Assembly (NCBI GenBank): GCA_900618425.1
Contig: UZAN01039569.1
Location: 20,285 to 84,284 of the forward strand
Reading direction: 5' to 3'
Length of the DNA: 64,000 bases
Source: Echinostoma caproni
Taxonomy: Eukaryota; Platyhelminthes; Trematoda; Plagiorchiida; Echinostomatidae
Both the position numbers and the translations under genes were made by a program. The first letter of the stretch is position 1; each line of letters begins with the position of its first letter. The notes beneath the pieces were generated by a model that did not search any database, was not told the DNA's origin, and saw only the letters and a list, made by a program, of their open reading frames with translations. Below, in pieces: positions 5,820-57,985 of the stretch.

Positions 5820-6454
5820 GTAAGTGTTCTCTAGGTGTAGATGAATACTGCCACAATTGTACAGTTGTACAAGTCTGTAGTTGCACACTTCAACAATATT
5901 ATATAATGAAGTGTGCTATATTATTTGTCAAAATCGGTTTCTTCACATAAATTTTATGGGTTTCCAAGATCGGGGTGCATGCTGTACTTAATTTTAATCA
6001 GATACCTAGGATAACGGTCAGACTTATGGTGGAGTCAAGCTGTGAGTCAATCCTTGACAGTCTGGTCCTTGTAAACAGATCAAAACTTTTTGGTTTTGTG
6101 TTTCAGAGGATCCACTTGAATACAGAATAAAAAGACTATAGCCTGAATTCCAAGGTTGCCTTGAACAATTACAAAATTAAATCCACTTGAATTAATTTAG
6201 CCATTTTTCTTTTATGATTTTGAAAAATGATTTGGGAGGTCAGTATTGTTTAAGTAACCTCATTCAGCACCTAGAATTAGCATCGCTAACCACTGCCAGG
6301 CTTCGGAGGCACTGTACGGTGAGTGACGTAAGAGATAGATTAAATTTCTGATCACCTCATGTGACAACTGAATACTTCGATGCTTGTCTGTGGTCAGTTC
6401 AGATAAAGTTCACTGAGTAAATGCGATAGAAATGTTTGTGATAAATAACAAAGA

Positions 6455-6499
6455 GCACTGGACAGCTGTTTCGTCCTGTTTGGGACTCGTCAGCAGTGC
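6455..6499 (-). ncRNA. type I hammerhead ribozyme, intact core
   Basis: Minus strand, 5' to 3': stem I strand GCACTG (6499-6494); core CTGACGA (6493-6487); stem II GTCC-CAAACA-GGAC; core GAAA; minimal palindromic stem III ACAGCTGT; cleavage triplet GTC with C17 at 6461; then CAGTGC (6460-6455) pairing all six bases of stem I. All invariant core positions (C3, U4, G5, A6, G8, A9, G12, A13, A14, A15.1, U16.1, H17) are present. Predicted cleavage lies between 6461 and 6460. A stem III this short is typical of retroelement hammerheads, which cleave best as dimers or in long transcripts. Activity is inferred from the sequence, not shown. Confidence 0.88.
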
Positions 6500-6620
6500 G
6501 TACTTTCTGTGTCCCTGTCAGGACTTGAATCGCGGTTATTCGGGTTGGGACTTCAAACCCTTACCCTTGAGCTACACGGTTGACGGTTACCAACTTGTGC
6601 GAATGGCTCAATCAATTTAG
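6455..6620 (-). mobile_element. SINE-like element: tRNA-related head plus hammerhead
   Basis: Reading the minus strand from 6620, there is an A-box-like GTAGCTCAAGGG (6575-6564), then a near-consensus B box CGATTCAAGTCC (6532-6521), about 43 nt downstream as in an RNA polymerase III internal promoter. The hammerhead follows. This order matches the known Sm-alpha SINE-like family of schistosomes. The element directly abuts the foldback sequence starting at 6621. It probably moves using the reverse transcriptase of a LINE. Decayed relatives lie at 18.4, 33.6, 37.9 and 56.5 kb. Confidence 0.75.
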
Positions 6621-6766
6621 ATGGTGAATGTTTGGATTAGCCCATTCGGTTTTTCACAAGCACCAAGCACTGTTGATGATGTTGATTGTGGGTTTCAATC
6701 CATCACATCATCAACAGTGCCTGGTGCCTGAGAAAAACCGAATGGGCTAATCCAAACATTCACTAA
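6621..6766. repeat. foldback (hairpin) element
   Basis: Two arms of about 63 nt (6621-6683 and 6703-6766) are reverse complements with only a few differences. Both contain the words TTTGGATTAGCCCATTCGG and CACTGTTGATGATG, around a loop of about 19 nt. A single arm recurs at 25978-26055, preceded by the same CAATT(A/T)AGATGGTGAA sequence. The full hairpin is therefore an inverted duplication of that unit. Confidence 0.8.
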
Positions 6767-7614
6767 AGTTCACTGTTGTAAAATACATGTCGGGTGGTTT
6801 CGCGTTTATCTTATTTATCACCCATTTTGACACTTAAATCTTGTAAATTTTACCGTGAGTAAACTAAGATAATGTTATTCAAGCAAGGTCATTGAAGGAT
6901 ACACCTAAAGCTTACTCCTTCCCTATGTCTACAACGGGTTCATCTAAACTGTAACTAGAACAACTGTAATATCCAAATCCCCTGGAACAACCAAGTAGTA
7001 ACTTGAACCAATTTTCGGATTAACAGGTTGTATTCCCCGACAACAGTATTTCAAACTACCCTATGTTTGGAATATTTTTTTCAACTTGTTCCTCTGCAAT
7101 CGTTTCACTTGACTCGGTAGGAATCATCAAAGGTTCTTAGCTAGTTGAATTCACTGGGTTTTAAACCCGATCACGATGGACTATTAATCAAACGCTCTAA
7201 CTACGTAGTTCATCCTCTGCAGCTGGCAAAAAGTCAACACTGAATGACATGAAGCTCAAACGTCACTGTTATTAGGAGTAGTAGACACTATCAAGCAGGG
7301 ATAGACTCTGTGACAACTCATAAGGAAATTTACATCTGGCTGCGGTGAATATGCACTGTTGTGAACTCCTCATGAGGAGCGTTGCAGTACAGTGCGACAC
7401 AATTTTGAGTAAGGTATGTATTTACGTATTTATGTTTGTATATATTTTCATAAAGCTCGAGTTTCCTGCATCGCCAAAATTATCACCCCAACCTTTTTCC
7501 AATCTGAATTTTATCCCTCAATCGAATACGATGTCAAAATACAGCAGTCAGAAATCACTGTCGGTGCAAGGCCAAATACTGTTGATCGGGTTAGATTAGG
7601 CTTATTAACCAAAC

Positions 7615-17115: not shown

Positions 17116-18424
17116 GATATGGAGAATGAAACGTCTCACCTGACTGATATATTCTAAATGAGCTCTACTGGTTTGTACTCGAAGGAGAGAATAATATTAT
17201 GCAGGCTCCGTATGGTGTAGTTTGTAACAATGATTATAGACAACTAATGGCCAAATTTTAACACAATATATTTGTGTGGTAATTCGGTCTGAAAAAAAAT
17301 TCAGTGGAAAAAGGAAAAATTATAACTCTAGTGGGATGGTAATGATCCACCTTTTTGTCATGTATTTGGCGCCCCTAGCAACCAGGTAAACAACCATCAT
17401 ATCCATGTTATATGGCGTCGAGAAATAGGATTCATTTTTGTAATACTAAACCTTTTATTCTGGTGAATAACATTATCAGTAAAAAGTTGCATTTTTTGAA
17501 TTTAAAGAAAACTGTCCAGCCTAAGGCATCCGCTATCCACAGGATGTCAGACAGCACCAAACGACCGCATACGTGGCCTTGTCAGTCTTATTCATCTTAT
17601 GGCATTTGTTGAATGTCAAGCATATATGTAATTACTTGGTAAGTGGAATAATAACAAATTTTAGTTCTTCAATTGATTGCTCCTTTCACACACACGACGA
17701 ACGCAGGTGTGAATAGTTTCATGTGTGCGGTTTTTTGATGAATTGAAGATGATAAATCTAGTTAGCAGCAAATTAAAAGAACGACGCGTTAAACAACTCC
17801 GCTCACTAGATACCGAGGGATGATGTTAGGAAGAATTGTAAAGCACATCAGATTTAATGTGTATAACGAAATTGTTAAATTAGCACCAAACGTTTAGTTG
17901 AGATCGCTTGTAGAGTCATCCATTTGAGTGGCATGCTGAATAACAAAATTAGTATGCACATTTATATGGTGCAATTTCTACTAGATACTTTTTACAATGA
18001 AATGAAAAATAAGCTCTATCCTGAGCCTGATGCGTGAGTTACGAGTAAGACAATCCAAACAGCACTTGGGACTTAGAATTTATTTTTCGGGGTTGGTGAA
18101 GCATTAATGTCTCTTCACATCCAAGCAATGCAAATCGTAGGTCGATAAATAGAAACTGGACTGAGGAAACTTGAGAGTGAGAAGTATTTATTTTTAGTGA
18201 ACAGGTTATTTCCGTGTATGTTGATTTCCATTCAAAAGATGGTACATATCCGTCTAACTTTGATTGGTTTCAAATCATTTTGTTGAGCCCTAACCTTGAC
18301 ACAAAGGTTGCCTGAATAATTTGCATCATATCAAGTCAAGTCACGTAAAGCCAATTTTGAAATTAAAAACATATTAGTTTAAACACATGCAGATGGAATA
18401 TACCGTGGCGGAATGACCTGATGA

Positions 18425-18520
18425 CCAACAAGGAGCATTGAACAGCTGTTTTTGCTGTTGAAGACTCAAGATGAGCATCAAGGATTTGAATCTACAAAAC
18501 TTGAACCACTAGTTGTTTCA
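18425..18520 (-). mobile_element. degenerate hammerhead SINE relic
   Basis: Plus-strand word GAACAGCTGTTTTTGCTGTT aligns with the stem III side of the intact copy at 6455-6620. On the minus strand AAAACAGCTGTTCAATGC and a B-box-like GATTCAAATCC remain, but the CTGANGA core is destroyed. Confidence 0.45.
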
Positions 18521-24292: not shown

Positions 24293-25977
24293 CTGGATGA
24301 AATAAAGGTAAAAATGGGATTGAAACATCGAAATATTTGCAATATGAAAAATCGCTTCCCAGGATTATCCAAAAGCGCTATTGGGAGTATTTCCTTGTAT
24401 GCATAATCTCTATTTAGCATGAAATCGACGTCATTTAAGTCAAGTAATGCATTCGATAGATCAAATGTGAAAACAAATCTGTTTCATGGATGAAACACGA
24501 ACTTTTGGGTGCGGATCACAGGGATGTTTGTTCAAGTAAATGGGTATTTTTATCTTGAAATCGTTCACTCATGTTCTGTTGATAACCCCTGAATTCAAAC
24601 CTAATTTTACGTTGTTAGTATGATCCCCTGAAATTAGACGAAGTTAAGAAACTTCATTTCGCTTAGACACGTGGCGAATTTACGCTGTGCGGGCATGCGC
24701 TTGATAGATATTGTTGCACTGTCTGCATCGGAACGAATTCGTTTGGACCAGTTGCTAAGACTGCACGTGCTTCGCGGATAGTTTTCTTCCTTCCGTCACG
24801 GTTCCCTTATTTGTATAATCTCAAGGTCATGGTTACCATCTGTTTAGTCTGAATAAGCTGGCATAGTCATCTGTTTCCCATGATCGAGAGAAAGATATAT
24901 ACAACAATTCCATTGGAGTATTTATGCTACTATTACTGCCGCCACTGTTATAAAGTCATCCAAGAGAATAAATAATAGAAACTAACTTTACTAGTGCATC
25001 AATTAGGTGAATTCCTGGTTACAAATGGGTTCGAACAACCATAATGATTTCGAGAGCAGTACAAAACCAATAGGTGTACACCTAATGCATCACTTTTGCC
25101 TACTCTTGGCTTTCATTTTTACACAAACGGATTCACTAAACCCGGGACAAAATACCACGATCACGTATACCAAAACAATCAGTAAATTATTGTGTCTGCC
25201 TAGACTATACCGATGATTGCGCCCACATTAAAGGTAAGTGGATAAGTTTAGGAGCTGTCCATTCAACCAAGAATTTGGTACTATCTTTCCCAATTGTGAA
25301 TTCTAGTTAATGCGCAGTCCTGCACCGTTTACTGTCCATGCTATCTTTTGAGTGTGATTGACTCAAAGTGATTCGTGGTATTATTAGTTGATCCACATGG
25401 TTAGAAAAAGTGAAACAAAACCACAACTGGATGTCAGTTTTACCTTCTCGGGGTAAAAAACATTTCTCTCCCTTGCTTTCTCTCTCTCCCCCCTCTCTCT
25501 CTCTAGCCCCGTAAATACCCGTGAAATTTAGGGCGTTCACCAAAAGCGACATCATCACGAGGGCATTGAACCATCACTGTGTTGTCCGTTCACGAGAGCA
25601 ATTAGTGAACGATATTTCCAACACGGACGCAGTCTGGCTGTAGATCGATGAGGTTAGACTTCAAGCAATCATTTTAATTGCCGCAAAAGTTTCCGAGTGG
25701 AATTATTTATGTCTCTTGACCACTGGGTTATCTATGATAAAATACTGATATTCGGGTGTATTTAGTTTATTGTGATGAAATTCTATTTTGTGTCAGTTTA
25801 GTTTATTCTCACGGGTTGTTTACCGCATATCCCGCTACTACTATGAGTTTATTCTAAACCAACGGTCCAAGTAGAAGGCAAAATCGCATTGCTTAGGAAC
25901 TTTCTGGGGATCTAGTTCTTTCGGTTCTGTCGTCTCCGGACAAGCGGTTTGGAATTCCACGGAGTACAAAGCCAATT

Positions 25978-26055
25978 AAGATGGTGAACGTTTGTATTAG
26001 CCCATTCGGTTTGCCACAGGCACCAGGCACTGTTGAAGATGTTGGACGTGGCTTT
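25978..26055 (+). repeat. single arm of the 6621-6766 foldback element
   Basis: AGATGGTGAACGTTTGTATT and CCACAGGCACCAGGCACTGT match one arm of the foldback at 6621-6766, in order, without the inverted partner. It is therefore a solo unit of the family. Confidence 0.7.
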
Positions 26056-27175
26056 CACTCCTTGGGAGATCGTTAAAATCCAATTTGTCTCAGTATTTTT
26101 ATTCTTTGTAAATGGACTGATCTTGATATGCGTATTCATAGGCTTAAAATAAAACCATTTTTTCAGTATGCCGTAGTCCTTTTTTCACCTCCAGCTACAG
26201 AATGTTTGCAAATCAAGGAATTCATGTTGTCGTTCTTCATCATCAAAATACTTCTAAATGGATTTCCAACTTTCAGGATTTTGGCCGAAAACGATGGGCA
26301 GATGAGGATGCTATCCAGACTCGTGGCTTCTATTTTGTGAAACTTCAATATACATCAAAGTGACGACTTCAACCAGTTTCCCGTAGTATGTTCTTCAGAT
26401 TTGCCATCTACACACCTATCGCGGTTGTCTTTCATGTGGTCCGTAACTCGCACTTAGGTCGATCACGACCACGAGTAAATGTTAGATCATATCAAACGTG
26501 TAATTCGTCCATTCTACTGTTCATCCCATAGGAAGGGGGTGTAATTAAAAAACAACTCATGGATGAATAATGATCCAAAGAGAAATATAATGTAGAGTGG
26601 GAAGGATTATAACTTTACTAATGTTATAATTCCAGAAAGCGGTGCTGGTCGAGGATAATCGTTTATTGAGGATCACAGGTGGGACATCAGTGATTTGGCA
26701 TACATAACCCAGCAAATCTCATCAGAAACATACTATCGCAGTTCCTAGTTGAACGGCGGGTAATGAGCGTAGCAATCGATAGTTATTCTCTGAGATATAG
26801 AAATTTGCCTGCAGTGGTTTTCTTAATTTATAATCGTCGAAAGTAATCACAAACTATGTTACCTACTACTCACAAGTGAGTAGCATCTCACAACACTAAG
26901 ATTTTTCGCCGCTGCATAACAAATTTCACACTAAGCATCAATTAGTCTCTCCATCGGTGCCCAATAAACGCAGTTCAAAATATTGGAGATAAATGACCTA
27001 GACTTTGTCAGTATTATATTAATCATATCAGCGATACGACATGCTAAATTCAGTAAATAAAATCGTGTTAAAAAATAATCCTGTTTAAGCAGCTAATTCG
27101 TATTGTAATCCAGAGGTCTGTTTTTAAAATAAACACATTCATCAATAACCGTTTGCAGAATTTGAAGTCACTCAC

Positions 27176-33125: not shown

Positions 33126-33563
33126 AAGGTGGATATGCACTACTAATGAGAAATAACAACAGTGGAATAAGAGCTTAGTGTATCTTGAATGTTTGGTTGA
33201 CGGGATGAACTCAGATGAAGTCTGAATGATGGCCGGTCAGAATCCAAAAGCACATGTTCACTTTGTTCGTTCACAACAGTTACTTGATATTCTTTTTTTC
33301 ATGCTAAAACAAATTTCGTTCTGGAAACAATGGATCATCGACGATAACGACGGTTCAAGGCTTGAGGCACCTAGCAGAAGTATCAGAAATGACCGGAATT
33401 ATTCTATCGATATTTAGAAACAGAGGAGTACACAAACTAGGAACCTTATTATAAGGCACTCGTTAAAAAATCAGTAATAAACTTAAAAAGGATAAAAATA
33501 GAAATCTCAAAGTGGAAATTTGGTGCGTATTGACAAATGAAGCGTGAACTAAAAAGTTAGAAA

Positions 33564-33700
33564 GCACTGGACAGCTGTTTTGACCTCGTTAGATCTCATC
33601 AGCAATGCGAATTCACCGACCCAAATGGGGATTGAACCGGGACCTCACAGGAAGAAGGCAAACATACTATCCATTTGGTCACCGGGCAAATGATCAAACC
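33564..33700 (-). mobile_element. hammerhead SINE copy with lost G12
   Basis: The minus strand carries a perfect B box CGGTTCAATCCCC (33639-33627), then a 45-nt hammerhead at 33608-33564. Stem I GCATTG/CAGTGC, core CTGATGA, stem II GATC..GGTC and stem III ACAGCTGT with the GTC cleavage triplet are all kept. The base corresponding to invariant G12 is A (plus-strand T at 33581), giving AAAA instead of GAAA. G12 is needed for catalysis, so this copy is predicted to be inactive. Confidence 0.75.
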
Positions 33701-33715
33701 GTTTTCACTTTCCAT

Positions 33716-33920
33716 TTACACGATACAGCATGACCCATCTTTGCGAGCTTGTTGCGGGCCACGGACCTCGCTCATCTCAGCACTAGCCTCCGGGGTATTG
33801 ACTCGGTTGAAAACATGCACAACCTGATTACTTGTTTCATGTGTGCAATAGAGGAGTTGGGCAGATAGATTCACATGCTGAGGACACCGAACCAGGTCGA
33901 AACAGCTATCCACTCCTTTC
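33716..33920 (-). other. unclassified GC-richer block next to the SINE
   Basis: An open minus frame of 65 codons ends at 33716. It is Cys- and Gln-containing and shows no known signature. Its position beside the SINE suggests mobile-element debris rather than an exon, and its phase was not compatible with exons 8 and 9, which join directly. Confidence 0.25.
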
Positions 33921-36900
33921 TAGTTTTGCAGTTCGCTCTTCATTTGCCCTATATGCGACGCATTTCCCCCTTGAAATGGAATTAAGTACCCTATTACTCA
34001 TATGGAAAAATTAAAATGTTAATAATATAACCAGTTGCCTAAACTTTGACCAGTTTTCCATTTGTCAAACCTAAAGATAATCTACTAAACGGTTTGTAGT
34101 TAGTTAGTAGTTGGAAACCAAAAGCAGACATCATTCATCTGCATATCTGTGAAATCTATTGGGTTTTAATTCGAATGGAACCAGAAGGAGACCCTGCAAA
34201 CACACGCAGGCAAGGCTGGGAAATTTTTCTAAACGCGATTTCCTAGGATTGTATAATTTATCAGAATCACGAATCACGAAGATCGAAGGAGATAGCTCAA
34301 TCAAGAGTAACTGCATGAAACGTTATAAAATATGATCTTTATCGGTACTTAGAGCCATTGGCCATCAAGAGTTGGATCTCAGACTGAAGCGTGCTTCACA
34401 ATTCGACCTTGACGCGTAACATTCAGCTGACTAATATGTCATACGACCAGCAATATACAGATACTAAGGGCCACAAGGGTTCAGAGTTTCACTCTTTCAA
34501 TATCTATCCTGATCATTAAAGTTTAAATAATAGGATCTAAAGAAAGTAGAAAAATCACCAGCTACATTAGGTGAGAACTTTGTCCATATTCACCCAACGG
34601 TCAACCATGGGAATTGAAAAACATGTACATTATACCGTTCTTGTCGATCTTTGAACGCAAAGTGTATGATCTGGTTCTGTAGCGATGTAGTTATTTGGTC
34701 AAAGCCAGCAAATCAGTTGACATTTATTTGTCGCGTAACTTCGAACTTCTTTGATAGATCAAACGTCTATTCTGCTGTTAGTTGTACCTGCATGGTTGAA
34801 CAAAATGGAGCATACGACTGGTTTCGTCGTTGCTAGGGCCTATTAGGCACTTGTGTCGCCAAATTTCTTTGACAGTCGATTATTTCACTTCCGCTTTTGT
34901 TATACAAAGTTCTTCAAACATGTTTTTGATTTGCTTCTCCGGAGGAGCGTATCCGTTCAAAATAGGTATATTGGTTGAGAGTGTTGAGGTTAGTAGCATC
35001 TTAGCCACAGAGACAGCCAGATAATAATGACAGTGATTTACAAATGAAGCGCTCGGCAGAGACTTATCCGAAGACAACCATCTGGAGAATTATGAATTAT
35101 GAAGTTACGGCGAAGATTATAGGTATCCTGATATATATGGTTCCCTCAATTAAAAAGCTCAAGGACTGCAACAAATTCTTGAAAATACCGTAACTTTGAC
35201 TTTTTAGGGAAGATCAGTTAACGGACATTCCAATCTTCGCTTGGTTGGATGTCTCACTCATCATCAATTGTGCACAGCAAACACGCCATATGTGATGTCA
35301 CATTATAGAATAATTTTTTTCTTCCGGAATAAAGTGAAGTAAAGATAGGGATGAAACTAATTACCACTGGATACGTGCGATGTTGTTCGAACATATCATC
35401 CGTATTTGTGACTGAATTCATGTCACATTGGAATTTGACTATTATCAGATGCTGTATTCAACCCAAAACTACCCGCGCACCCCCACAAATCATCCCCAGA
35501 GTGTATGAGCGTGAGCAACTGCCCACGAGGTCAACGCTTTGGTATTAATATTCGCTCGAATGCCTGTGTATGTGTATTCCACGTGAATGCTTAAAGAACA
35601 CTGCCCTTTTCTGTGAGCATTAATACTCGGCAGTTGCCGGAGGCTACGCCCAGCATCACAATTTATGTGACAGTTCCTACTGTAGTATTTATGCAATAGT
35701 AAGTCGCATTGAATGATGGATTCGCTGAAAATGCGATTGAGTGAAAATTAAGCAAATGGAGGTGGGTGGGAGGTAGCAGTAGGCTATAGAAAGAAAGTGG
35801 GGTGTGTATAGTGCCCATTGATTGAAAGTACTAACTCATGGGCGTGGTAAGTTATCATTTTAATAAATCCGGAAATATGTCGTATTACTATTCTGTCCAG
35901 GATGAAAACTAGCGCCACAGTCTTTTGCCCAGTTGACTTTGCCGTCTAGCTGTAATTCCGAGTAACCCGGTGTTGCATGGTGTTGGACGATCGGTACAAG
36001 AATTCAGGCCGAGTATAATTTTGTTGTTGTTGACGATGATGATGATGAGGATGATGATGACTGATGCGTGCCTCTGTGTGTGACAGATTTGGGTGGCAGT
36101 CGTCGATTTTTTCAAGGATACCCCTTGGTCGTTCGCAAATAGTACAGATTTTTATGAGCTCAGTTATGTTCCACGGGTGTTTGTTTTAAATCGCTTTTTA
36201 AATTAGTTCAGTTCATTTTGTGTAACCGTTCACCGTGCATCTTCCTGCACCGTTGCTGTCTCCAAGCTATCTTCTTAGATGTAGAGGAAGAAGAGAACCT
36301 GGAAGGTTGAAAGTTGAATCTAAGGTAAATTGGAAACTAAATTTGAAAAGATAATGAAGAGATGCACCAGCACCACTGTTTATGACAAAGCCATATTACT
36401 GAGCGTCCCTAACCATCATTACAATGATCCTGGGGTCCCTATCAAGGGAGTCTAATGCGACTTAATATGATCGAGTCTCTTAGTTAGGACTAATACACTC
36501 ACGCCAGGTCCTAGGTTGCAAATAGCAGAGATTATACTACTATCAGACTGTGAAATCAAATTATAGGGAGTTGAAATGCTATGGCTTATGTGGACTGTAT
36601 GTCCACATATTTAGATCGTGCTTTCACTGATTCATGTCATGGAGTAAGTCTGAGATTTTGTAGTGACGCGATTGAGCCCAACATAATCTACCACCGGTAT
36701 TTCGTAACTATACTTGTCACACAAAAGAGTTAAAATTTGAAATCCTACAATCTTAAAACAGCAAGAAAAAAACATTCTCCAATAACTGGTTGAATTCGAC
36801 TGTTTCCAGTTGCCCCCTTAACTGTGTACATACATTCACATGGAAAAGTTCGATCAGAATCGTGATGAAAATTGGGATAGCGGAAAACACTTGACTGTGC

Positions 36901-37635: not shown

Positions 37636-37839
37636 CTATCAAGGAGTAAAATGTTTGAAATGGAAAATACCAAGTACATTTGAAAGTGGTCGCGTTTTAT
37701 TTTTTAAGGCAATAAGTGATTCTAAATTTTCACTTCAGTTCCAAAGGGAACGAAACACCTTTTTCGATTAGGACGTCTGAATTAGTTTATACAATTGGTC
37801 ACCGATACCAGACCCCGTTGATGGTGTGTGGAGTTCATT

Positions 37840-38000
37840 TCTTGAGGGCTCGTTAATTGCTCACCAGTTAAACATATTTATATGTCTCCCAATCCGAAGG
37901 TTTGCGGTTCCAGTACTGACGGGGACAGAAACAGTACGCACTGCTGACACGTTACCAAAAGAGCTGCCCAGTTCCGTTTGTCAGTTGTCATAAAATAAAA
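37840..38000 (+). mobile_element. degenerate hammerhead SINE, plus orientation
   Basis: TTGCGGTTCCAGTACTGACG supplies a B-box-like word. GTACGCACTGCTGACACG then follows as in the intact copy's GTACGCACTGCTGACGAG, but stem II and the GAAA box are disrupted (CCAGTTCCGT). It is a dead ribozyme copy in the opposite orientation to the others. Confidence 0.55.
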
Positions 38001-48299: not shown

Positions 48300-48525
48300 A
48301 AACAAAAGTTAACAAAATATTGAAAATCGGTTCTCGTAGGTCGGGTGATTTGAATTCTATTTCGCCTGTTCGCCGAGCTTGGCAATTTGTTTGCAAACGT
48401 TTCATCACTGACCTAGATGACATCATCAGTGTCACTTCACAAGAACTGATGATGCCACCTCGGCTGATGATGAAACGTTTGCAGGCAAATTGCCAAGCTC
48501 GGTAAACAGGCGAAATGGAAACAAA
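48300..48525. repeat. inverted duplication of a Penelope-associated terminal repeat
   Basis: 48361-48412 and 48452-48520 are inverted copies around TTCGCCTGTTCGCCGAGCTT, GGCAATTTGTTTGCAAACG and TTTCATCA. The same unit occurs once more at 50640-50870. It flanks Penelope debris and likely represents that family's terminal (pseudo-LTR) region. Confidence 0.65.
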
Positions 48526-54345: not shown

Positions 54346-55021
54346 AAGCGTTTTATCTCAATAAAAATTCACTCGTCATTATAATTATTGACTTCTTGTT
54401 CAACTAATAGACAATTTTATGAGCAATTTTTCTTGGTAAGGATGCCATCAACCAATGGGCAGCATGACAAGCGGGAAGGTAGATCGATATGTAGGCATTT
54501 TATGCAGCAAGCAGACAAGTATATCAATAAAAACGAATAATCTACTCTGACGAAATCCGCTGGCTCTCGCACAAATCGGTTACTACATGTTGATAGCATA
54601 TGCTCACCTTTCTGTCTGTTTTCAGGAGTTTCATTTTTTGGTATGTCCGGGTCGGTTCTACGTCCAATTTTGTGTTTTGTAACAATTGACTTTGTTTACC
54701 AAAAGTTGTATTTATCTGCGTTGACTTACATTTAAAACGATTGTCTGACAATATCAAGTTTACTCATATTTAAATATCCCACGATTTGTGCTCTATGCAG
54801 CCAAAAATGTTCAATTGTATCTCTAACGAATTATCAAAAACACGCTGTTCGGGGTGTATGCCTTTTTTCTATAGTTTTAGATGCAGTGGAAATTCTAAAT
54901 GAACTCAAAACTTCTGATCACGCCGGGGTAATATCAAGGCAGTAAAAAACATTAGCGAGGATGTTGGCTACGTGCGTGTATGCGTGATCTGCAGAAACGG
55001 AAAACCAGTGCCATAACGTAC

Positions 55022-55372
55022 CCATATGTCTTCCTGATTGATCAAGCTGGTAGTCTCAATCAATTCTGAGCTCAGATTACCGCTTCCGGCACTAGCGATC
55101 AACTGTACTTGCAACGAACCCGGTCGAGTTCCGATTCCAAGCCACTGGTAACAAGGAAAACAACTCCAACCGCGAGTCAGCGGATGATCAATAATTCCTT
55201 CCGCGTGTTGTTCCTTTGCGGTCCGGTTAGTTCGCATTTCGCGAACGAGGATATTCTCCAAATACCACTGCGATGCATCATCATCCATGCTGTCCGCGGA
55301 ACTGGAATCCAACCAAATAGATAAGCGGCGAAGTCGTCCAAGCGCGACTGCCTCAATCGTGAAATTACTGAC
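55022..55372 (-). CDS. PLAT-domain (LOXHD1-like) gene, exon 2
   Basis: 351 nt, phase 0 to 0, acceptor CTAATTGATTATCAG and donor TGG/GTACGT. It completes PLAT domain 1: VSNFTIEAVALGRLRRLSIW (F-x-I-E-A-V-x-LG-x-L-x-x-L), QWYLENILVREM (the conserved W-Y-L-E-x-I-x-V strand) and GWSCFPCYQWLGIG (the FPC-x-x-WL closing strand). A linker of about 35 residues follows, ending EDIW. The FPC-x-x-W-L phrase is strongly reminiscent of LOXHD1 PLAT repeats. The product is probably a membrane-associated or scaffold protein, since PLAT domains bind lipid or protein partners; its role in flukes is unknown. Confidence 0.92.
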
Positions 55373-56497
55373 CTGATAATCAATTAGAAATGGAATTGGA
55401 GATGGGACACTTTCCGAAGAGCACGAACGATAAACTCCAGAGAAGTGGAAAGCATGATTCTACACTGGATAATGTTTGTGACTTGTACACAGAATGATAT
55501 ACCCATAGTGTTTCTTCACCCTTAAGTATTTGGGTTTTTACACCGAATGACAATTTAATACCTGCTTTTTTGAAATATCACCGTTTAATTTTAGATTATA
55601 ATGCAGCAGAATGTAAATTGGTAACTTTTTCGACTAAAGTGATTAATAATAATCATAATAACAATCGATTACAGTGCAACGGATTAGTGTGAACACATTG
55701 GCAAATCTTTTGTCCCCACACATGCTGAATGGTGCACAAAATTCTTAATTTTTCACGTCTGTTCCATGAATGTTGAAAGAGTTTTCCCTAGAGTTTCTTA
55801 TTTGGCAGCCACCAAATCTTCAGTTACATTCAATTTTATAGCACAACTTCTGTCGCCGATAATGAGTTTCAAATTCTGACCTGGTCTTGCTCAAAGTCGC
55901 TGGTAGTTATGGCATTTTTCTCCAGCTCCACATGTTTTCACCACTATAGATCACTAAAATCATTTTTAATTTGAATGAAATCGTTGTCGCCTGATTTTGA
56001 ATGCAGCGCTGTTTAAAAATTTGGAGCTCCGTGACCTTAAGTCATCTGGTTAACCCATGAGACAAAACCCGTGGCTGATCCATGGACGTGGAGTGCCCTG
56101 GCCTCGAAAATTCCGAGATCGATGCTGACCACACTGGAGTTTTATCCACTGTGGCACTCAAAGCTTTTGCGGTCGCGCCAGAACCATTTCACATATGTAC
56201 TTGGGTTTTATCACGGTTTTTAGTTTAACGGTCCATCGTTTTACAACACACGGCACCCGATTGGACTAGATGAAAATTATGCCTGGCTGGTGCATTTACA
56301 AACAAATACGTGGTCAAGGGGATAGGAGTTGACAGTACTGGCGAATGAACAGTCACCTGTTCGTGATCGGCCAAATCCCCACCCTTGGTCATTAATCCAA
56401 TAAAACATTACATGTTTATACAGGAGAATTTTACCCGATTATGCACGGAATTTATTGTGGCAAGGAGCAAACAAAATACGAACTGAAAAGTTAGAAA

Positions 56498-56610
56498 GCA
56501 TTGCAAAACTGTTCCGATCTGGTTGGACCTCATCAACAGTGCTAATGCATATACTCGACTGAGGATCAAGCCCGGGATTTCAGAGACGGAACACAAGTGT
56601 TCAACCCACT
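56498..56610 (-). mobile_element. hammerhead SINE copy with three core lesions
   Basis: Aligned to the intact copy, the 45-nt ribozyme segment 56542-56498 keeps stem I (GCACTG/AATGC) and stem II (GGTC..GATC). C3 is T (TTGATGA), A13 is G (GGAA instead of GAAA), and the cleavage-site base C17 is G. It is predicted to be inactive. The tRNA-like head is only partly recognisable upstream (to about 56610). Confidence 0.65.
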
Positions 56611-56864: not shown

Positions 56865-57985
56865 TCACAAAGAATTTAAGAGACGACAGAGAGGCCTGGT
56901 GGGCGCTACGTGCAAAGGAGATGGAATCAACGGCTAGGTGTGGAAACACCCGGCAACTCTTCTAGCTCATCCGTGCTACAGGCTCCAAAGGAAGTGCGTT
57001 AATGAAACAATCTGCGAAGTAGATAACAAGCTGATAAATAGCCTTCACCGGCGATTGGAACGCTGGGAGGAGCACTTCACATCGCAGTTCAACTAGCCTC
57101 CGGCACTGGCTGCCCCAAGCAGCTCTCTTGAGAGTTCACCTTCGTCACTATCTACAGGTCCGCCCACAGAAGCGGAGATCCGAAAGGAACATTAAGCCCT
57201 GAAATGCCACAAGGCAGGTAAATCAGACGGCCTACCACCTGCTCTCTTTAAAGATGACGGAGATGCTCTCTTAAGAGAACTTGTGAGACTGTTCTCGATG
57301 GGCTGTGAAACTGAAATGTACCCCACACATGGGGAAATTCCATTGTCACACATCTCCAGGAAGAGCTGTCGCAACGCATGTTCCAACCACAGGGGCCAAA
57401 GTCTGTTTCCAATAGAGCCGAAGCTGCTGGTGTTCGTTTCATTACGCAGGTTATGCCCACTGTGTGGGAAGCAAATCCGCGAGAAGGAGACCGGGTTTTC
57501 GTGCACGCCGTGGATGCGTAGATCAAATCTTCATCCTCCGTCAGCTACTAGAACACCGTCACACATACNCGACAAGCCGCTGTCGTGTTTTTAGACATCA
57601 GAGCGGCTTTCGACTCTATCAATCGCCCCGCACTATGGAACTGTCTGCGGAGATACGGAGTACTCGAGAAGTATGTCTCACTCCTAAAAGCGTTTCATCA
57701 CCAGACCTCGGGTAAGGTTAGGGCCTAAGGTGAATTTTCACCCTCATTTCCTGTCACCAGTGGGATGCGACAAGGTTGCCCTATCTCTCCGTTTCTCCCC
57801 TATGGCTGCTCTATGGCTGCGAGACCTGGCCTATCCGAGCAGATCACTTCCAGCGACTATTAGTCTTCGACAACCATTGTCTGCGTAACATTGCCCGCTT
57901 ATGGTTGAAGCATCGCGTGAATAGCGATGAAGTTAGACGACGGCTGCTAGGACCAGATAGTCTTCCTTTGAGCAAAATAATTTCA
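56865..57985 (+). mobile_element. RTE-type LINE relic, reverse-transcriptase region
   Basis: In shifting frames: DREAWWALRAKEME, RLERWEEHFTSQFN, LLRELVRLFS, CRNACSNHRGQSLFPI (the N-H-R-G-x-S-L-L-P box), SCRVFRH before RAAFDSI (the catalytic D-x-R-A-A-F-D-S region), and SGMRQGCPISPF (the G-x-R-Q-G-C-P-x-S-P box) near 57760. The sequence then jumps directly into LLYGCETWPIRADHFQRLL, which belongs much nearer the C-terminus. The palm's Y/F-A-D-D segment and following domain are therefore deleted. Stops, a frameshift and an n (57569) confirm it is dead. Confidence 0.85.

Follow-up and report, generated by a model that had tools for sequence, protein, structure and literature searches.

The window, that is, the whole 64-kb stretch of Echinostoma caproni DNA that was analysed (GC 36–41%), contains a 348-bp copy of a dispersed, non-coding element whose unit is about 321 nt long. 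The copy occupies positions 6416–6763 and consists of two head-to-head pieces lying between 12-nt target site duplications (Table 1). The preliminary description of this DNA had recognised a SINE at this place and was right about the kind of element, but it overlooked the head-to-head two-piece architecture and the 12-nt duplication. Decayed relatives, to which it had also pointed, are indeed present in the window (33564–33608, 37799–37994, 18419–18451 and the hammerhead-less 25973–26076).

Table 1. Features of the hammerhead element and of its relatives in the window; "unit" refers to the composite reference unit, and E1 and E2 are the two outer ends described in the text
Feature	Positions	Strand	Remarks
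Target site duplication, E1 side, TAAAGTTCACTG	6404..6415		exact 12-nt direct repeat with 6764–6775
E1 piece	6416..6701	-	unit ~114–321, then 1–~78; E1 (3′ end) outward at 6416, flush with the duplication
Type I hammerhead ribozyme	6455..6499	-	RF00163, 58.1 bits; predicted cleavage between 6461 and 6460
B-box-like pol III element GATTCAAGTCC	6521..6531	-	family majority GGTTCGAGTCC
A box TAGCTCAAGGG	6564..6574	-	fits TRGYNNARNNG
E2 piece, inverted	6705..6763	+	unit 133–191; E2 (3′ end) outward at 6763; 98.3% identity to the composite
Target site duplication, E2 side	6764..6775		12-nt repeat of 6404–6415
Fragment	18419..18451	-	unit 23–55; 88% identity
Partial copy without hammerhead	25973..26076	-	unit 99–202, ends at E2; 90% identity
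Second hammerhead family, different head, head to head	33534..33946		33564–33608 (-) and inverted partner 33876–33946 (+)
Old head-to-head copy	37799..37994		37799–37864 (-), unit 91–161; 37887–37994 (+), unit 265–59
Second-family fragment	56480..56549	+	78.6% identity

The single match above the Rfam gathering threshold in the 64-kb window (cmscan) is Hammerhead_1 (RF00163), on the minus strand from 6499 to 6455. Its 58.1 bits compare with a threshold of 34 (E = 1.2e-12), the match is complete over model positions 1–45, and no broken pairs are marked. A complete hammerhead had been placed at exactly these coordinates by the preliminary description, with a covariance score above the family threshold as the check, and the prediction holds in its details. 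The invariant positions CTGACGA, GAAA and GTC are all found, as are a 4-bp stem II (GTCC/GGAC), a 6-bp stem I (GCACTG/CAGTGC) and a stem III formed by the palindrome ACAGCTGT. As read from the sequence, stem I can be extended by AAAG/CTTT across an internal loop. With an intact core and a score over the curated threshold, the copy at 6455–6499 is assigned to the type I hammerheads of RF00163, and it is real as a predicted ribozyme. The minimum-energy fold of the ribozyme region in a single unit differs from the hammerhead, which is compatible with a need for paired units but leaves cleavage as a prediction. Covariation is uninformative about the fold: the 61 copies aligned had been found via their hammerhead and are nearly uniform.

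Across the 426.5-Mb genome (12,689 contigs), the core pattern CTGANGAGTCCCAANNAGGACGAAAC has 573 exact matches against 0 for the reversed pattern, so the hammerhead is not a product of chance. A search of the genome for the hammerhead family returned at least 74 matches, a lower bound, with 74 scored among 66,429 first-look candidates; all 74 of the scored matches listed exceed the Rfam threshold. For the anatomy of insertions, 60 of these 74 hammerhead places were taken together with their flanks. A composite reference unit combines individual copies with a majority consensus taken over 66 copies. On this unit, the hammerhead core lies at 1–33, followed by the end points E1 (~72–85) and E2 (~183–206), an A box (TAGCTCAAGGG, 241–251), a B box (GGTTCGAGTCC, 284–294) and then the 5′ strand of the hammerhead. 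Both boxes fit the pol III consensus, the A-box motif being TRGYNNARNNG. The gapped majority consensus of the 66 copies has an exact B box and an A box that fits in every column but the eighth, where no base has a clear majority. The near-consensus B box noted earlier in the window copy is confirmed, with two mismatches. The longest run of T in the unit is three, and the composite, treated as a circle, folds to −90.2 kcal/mol versus −67.0 (sd 5.1) for 100 mononucleotide shuffles.

The element had been called a tRNA-headed SINE. The A and B boxes and the SINE-like dispersal bear out one half of that name, but the head has no tRNA match: ARAGORN found no tRNA in the window, and the Rfam tRNA model did not match the head of the element in the window (E ≤ 10) or in six other copies (E ≤ 1). 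The same model does find other tRNA-like sequences, in loci L071 and L040. The element thus has the A and B boxes and the dispersed copies with target duplications of a tRNA-derived SINE, and no recognisable tRNA descent; because the tRNA models miss the head, it is named here a pol III-box element and not a proven tRNA derivative. Rfam candidates for mir-392 and MIR7533 at inverted repeats fall below threshold and are read as palindromes, not as microRNAs.

The intact core had also been taken to imply recent mobility or selection, which the wider sample does not support. In 17 hammerheads lying outside the selecting hits (two of them, in L036, being of a second hammerhead family), the ribozyme is 91.2% identical to the composite unit (681/747 positions) and the flanks are 89.1% identical (865/971), while the core is intact in seven. 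Single copies therefore decay about like their surroundings; they appear to decay neutrally, and selection on them is without support. Over 280 nt of its E1 piece (6422–6701) the window copy is 93.9% identical to the composite, so it is not especially young. Its E2 piece forms a 59-nt inverted repeat (95%), and the 17-nt sequence GGCTAATCCAAACATTC occurs in the window at 6626–6642 on the minus strand and at 6745–6761 on the plus strand, against a mean of 0.09 in shuffles. The two pieces of the old copy at 37799–37994 have 70% (E = 0.004) and 73% identity, and the hammerhead core is broken in the piece at 37887–37994.

Copies of the element combine two pieces of the same sense that meet head to head and turn their 3′ ends outward at the fixed unit points E1 and E2. 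By BLAST in the 60 loci, this two-piece structure is present in 40 of 69 clusters, and short inverted E2 pieces of ~12–32 nt adjoin several apparently single copies. End pairing was scored by one rule on the 66 clusters that passed a loose hammerhead filter. Wherever both ends were recognised, E1 was paired with E2 (38/38; 24 with the variant E2b and 14 with E2a), and neither E1/E1 nor E2/E2 occurred. The remaining 28 clusters have E1 and an unrecognised end (12), E2 and an unrecognised end (11) or neither (5). Random flanking 69-mers, scored as a control, gave one recognised end in 2062. Sampling does not account for the lack of E1/E1, because any E1 piece of more than ~78 nt includes the hammerhead by which copies were found; E2/E2 copies could be under-represented by hammerhead-based sampling. 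Target duplications with a score of at least 8 flank 27 of the 69 clusters, compared with 86 of 1380 shuffled pairings. The 18 clear oriented duplications (score 9 or more) measure 9–15 nt, and 12 of them are 12 or 13 nt long. The hammerhead cut site was considered as an end of the element and rejected: the recognised outer ends lie at unit ~72–85 and 183–206, not at 33/34.

Eleven continuous pieces in the 60 loci are longer than the 321-nt unit, the longest reaching 435 nt and containing two hammerhead cores; two direct cores are seen in one piece, that of L023. Such pieces imply a template RNA in circular or tandem form. Inside a two-piece copy, two same-sense copies overlap and meet at inner points that vary, and these inner ends cluster at unit 133–144 (13/108), 277–288 (14/108) and 193–204 (10/108), with a fuzz of a few nucleotides in the BLAST ends. 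The densest 12-nt window of inner ends holds 16, a value reached in 0 of 500 uniform simulations. The 193–204 cluster coincides with the E2 start region, as though the polymerase at times came to a halt on completing one turn or on reaching the other start site. The inner ends at unit 277–288 pile up at the B box, in a T-arm-like region, where a reverse transcriptase stop at a modified base would be one explanation.

The genome also harbours Penelope-like elements (PLEs), with GIY-YIG at five places and at least 150 PLE reverse transcriptase (RT) matches (150 scored among 3054 candidates). The top relative of the PLE RT is from a brittle star (47% identity over 91% of the query); others are from Echinostoma caproni itself (56% over 73%), Heterobilharzia and Paragonimus. 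At locus L071, RVT_1 (50 bits) and GIY-YIG (30.3 bits) both exceed their cut-offs, and this coding part is flanked by inverted arms of 108 nt that are 94% complementary. Both arms contain GGCTAATCCAAACATTC, which is exactly the E2a end of the hammerhead element. None of 2000 dinucleotide shuffles aligned as well as L071 does with E2a, and 3 of 2000 did so for a 12-nt match of L069. The latter is a 5′-truncated PLE with unlike ends, its left end being an inverted piece with GGCTAATCCAAA and its right end stopping earlier.

The 14-mer TGGCTAATCCAAAC occurs 172 times in the genome versus 3 times for the reversed control. The RT table was compared by hand with the 100 of these 172 sites that were listed, and the 14-mer was found within 1.3 kb of 5 of 13 PLEs with an RT identity of at least 60% on covered contigs (C787, C825, C1085, C1634 and C2339), where arithmetic gives a chance expectation of ~0.001 per PLE for a 3-kb span. 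In four of the five it is on the strand of the RT, 0.9–1.3 kb to its 3′ side, and in one it faces outward on the 5′ side; the other eight PLEs have none of the 100 listed sites nearby. Among five short PLE stretches at 3′ ends, L078 carries the E2a-type site, L074–L076 align to L071 without it (L076 stops short of the position), and for L077 no alignment passed the cut-off. The commoner variant E2b has 506 exact copies, and none of the 100 that were listed lies within 1.3 kb of a scored PLE in the expected orientation; the nearest listed sites are one on the wrong strand on C136, which is part of the element at L041, and one on C935 at a distance of 4.7 kb. The resemblance of E1 to the PLE end is weak (48/2000 shuffles), as is that of E1 to E2 (106/2000), and no other stretch of the unit matches the PLE loci strongly beyond the 17-nt end.

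Rfam lists no hammerhead in the PLE loci L069–L073 at E ≤ 1 (L072 being partly masked). By eye, a hammerhead-like remnant (GACC..GGTC GAAAC) can be seen in the PLE pseudo-LTR (L071:2115–2145, L069 and L072), and its core looks altered. Nothing in the window matches the L071 and L069 proteins at E ≤ 0.01; in the 60 hammerhead loci these proteins detect PLE coding fragments in three, none of them inside the element. One fragment, at L024:1296–1778, is from the endonuclease region (30% identity) and lies 80 nt from a hammerhead element.

We read the element as a non-autonomous hammerhead SINE or retrozyme with a unit of ~321 nt that is probably mobilised in trans by PLE machinery, a reading to which we assign a probability of about two in three. 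The 348-bp element encodes neither RT nor GIY-YIG and is not an autonomous PLE. Its insertion structure ties it to PLEs more than to a LINE: there are two internal start sites, the copies are head to head (38/38), and one RNA end, E2a only, is common to the element and a resident PLE. Several observations weigh against the reading: the common end measures just 17 nt, E2b has no PLE partner among the listed sites, E1 lacks a clear counterpart in a PLE, eight of the 13 PLEs lack a listed 14-mer, the single-unit fold is not the hammerhead, and published work on PLEs sees no strand difference in start site (PMC11167929) or favours self-priming (PMC3846280). Judging from the A and B boxes, an internal pol III promoter would drive transcription of the unit. 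RNAs longer than one unit would be cut at the hammerhead and the unit ligated into a circle; given that stem III is a palindrome with no loop, cutting would probably involve a pairing of two ribozymes. A PLE-type enzyme, with RT and GIY-YIG endonuclease, may then nick the target with a stagger of ~12–13 nt, the size seen in the duplications, and cDNA synthesis would begin on both target strands from two set positions within the RNA, E1 for one side and E2 for the other, as the outer ends suggest. Finally, a head-to-head junction would form between the two same-sense cDNAs, and such junctions are observed at variable inner points.

A SINE might instead spread by LINE machinery, in which case a LINE enzyme would copy a linear pol III RNA and ordinary twin priming would account for the inversions. 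The pol III boxes, the variable length of the target duplications and the truncated pieces would suit such a SINE, and a LINE-like frame is visible by eye near 57196–57985, although Pfam found no family in the two frames there. LINE twin priming, however, places the inverted outer end at variable positions, whereas E2 stands across from E1 in all 38 copies with both ends recognised; together with copies longer than one unit and the match of E2a to PLE ends, this makes the LINE route improbable in our judgement.

The E2a end shared with L071 raises a different question, namely whether the unit is a solo pseudo-LTR, a non-coding repeat of a hammerhead-bearing PLE and not a separate element. PLE pseudo-LTRs can bear hammerheads and head-to-head inversions, according to the cited passages of PMC11167929 and PMC3846280, and PLE coding fragments do occur in 3 of the 60 loci, at L024 close beside the element. 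Yet hammerheads are missing from the Rfam results at E ≤ 1 for the five PLE loci (L072 partly masked), only the end of the unit matches them strongly, no fragment matching the L071 or L069 proteins lies within the element in the 60 loci, and the unit has A and B boxes of its own; we give this explanation a smaller chance than the LINE route. Least credible of all, to the point of being very improbable, is a DNA transposon or foldback element with E1 and E2 as terminal inverted repeats moved by a transposase. The copies are palindromic and their outer ends are inverted and vaguely alike (the 106/2000 above), but the target duplications vary between 9 and 15 nt, and the interior is made of two overlapping same-sense copies with variable joints.

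Schistosomes reportedly carry hammerhead-bearing SINE-like elements, Sm-alpha and Sj-alpha. By description, these resemble the present element in having a type I hammerhead within a SINE-like element, the Sm-alpha-like W36.2_W001 being 335 bp long, whereas the cited part of that description (PMC8490949) says nothing of paired head-to-head ends. Metazoan non-LTR retrozymes, as presented in the cited passages of PMC7229834 and PMC7761336, are likewise protein-less, with a type I hammerhead, a unit of 170–400 nt and duplications longer than 4 bp, and our small non-coding 321-nt unit with its type I hammerhead agrees with them in these respects. Those retrozymes form tandem repeats, from dimers to large multimers, and are said in the same passages to be without promoters or a motif pointing to a helper; the present element differs in its pol III boxes, its dispersed head-to-head copies and its helper-like end.

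PLEs have many of the same features, as described in the cited portions of two papers: head-to-head inverted copies, two internal starts, an optional tail, a staggered cut with short duplications, and an association with hammerheads (PMC11167929; PMC3846280). In a lizard PLE, reverse transcription starts from two adjacent internal RNA sites and both target strands are cut and extended; the two start sites account for the optional genomic "tail" of 30–40 nt, no strand difference in start site was seen, and hammerhead mutants are without effect on insertion (PMC11167929). A second study shows inverted pseudo-LTRs arranged head to head with a tail optional on one; duplications of 8–10 bp are present in some copies and absent from others, and self-priming on the antisense template is preferred as the origin of head-to-head copies (PMC3846280). 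The duplications of the present element (12 of 18 being 12 or 13 nt) exceed the 8–10 bp quoted for rotifer PLEs, and its start sites are ~120 nt apart and paired in each copy, compared with 30–40 nt in PLEs (PMC11167929).

The cited parts of PMC7229834 name LINEs or PLEs as spreaders of retrozymes, with PLEs as a strong candidate, and those of a 2024 review (PMC11722881) still name LINEs or PLEs. The PLE-helper hypothesis is thus already published, while evidence from insertion anatomy, in the form of paired ends, was not met in the literature searched. A search of titles and abstract openings in one collection found no paper that describes a hammerhead SINE with start sites in pairs or with the ends of a PLE. 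Here, dozens of copies, from a family of hundreds, record paired fixed RNA starts and a helper-like end, and the hypothesis thereby becomes directly testable with purified PLE protein. The copies are also natural data on the late steps of PLE integration, which are still to be validated experimentally according to the cited part of PMC11167929.

Within the PLE-mobilised reading, a more specific arrangement is possible, and we put it forward tentatively. One circular hammerhead RNA might be held by a dimer of PLE RT, with its subunits at E1 and E2, so that the staggered cut would be primed from both sides at once. If so, each insertion would be born as a head-to-head cDNA pair from one circle. 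Such paired internal priming of a ribozyme-made circle would be a mode of replication that was not met for any SINE or retrozyme in the literature searched, and it would explain why some inner ends cluster near the start sites (10/108, unit 193–204).

The second hammerhead family (pattern CTGATGAGNNCNAANNAGNNCGAAACAGC) is also inserted head to head. In the window, its copy at 33534–33946 has 71-nt inverted arms that are 79% complementary, and the hammerhead at 33564–33608 (minus strand) scores 30.9 bits, below the threshold of 34, with a broken core in which AAAA stands for GAAA. Further head-to-head pairs of this family are found in L036, L037 and L056. Just beyond the PLE at L071, two tRNA-like sequences (46.1 and 48.8 bits) are inverted head to head at 2495–2705, and this pair is perhaps another SINE with a like style of insertion. 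With the second family and the tRNA-like pair both head to head, this style of insertion would seem to belong to a machinery that the elements share.

A protein search with one open reading frame of the window and a PDB search with another gave no match. A long imperfect inverted repeat at 48375–48503 matches MIR4387 on both strands, below threshold. The frame at 54968–55459 is weakly PLAT-like (E = 0.0036, below the cut-off), with 39% identity to a Paragonimus protein and 58% to an unnamed protein.
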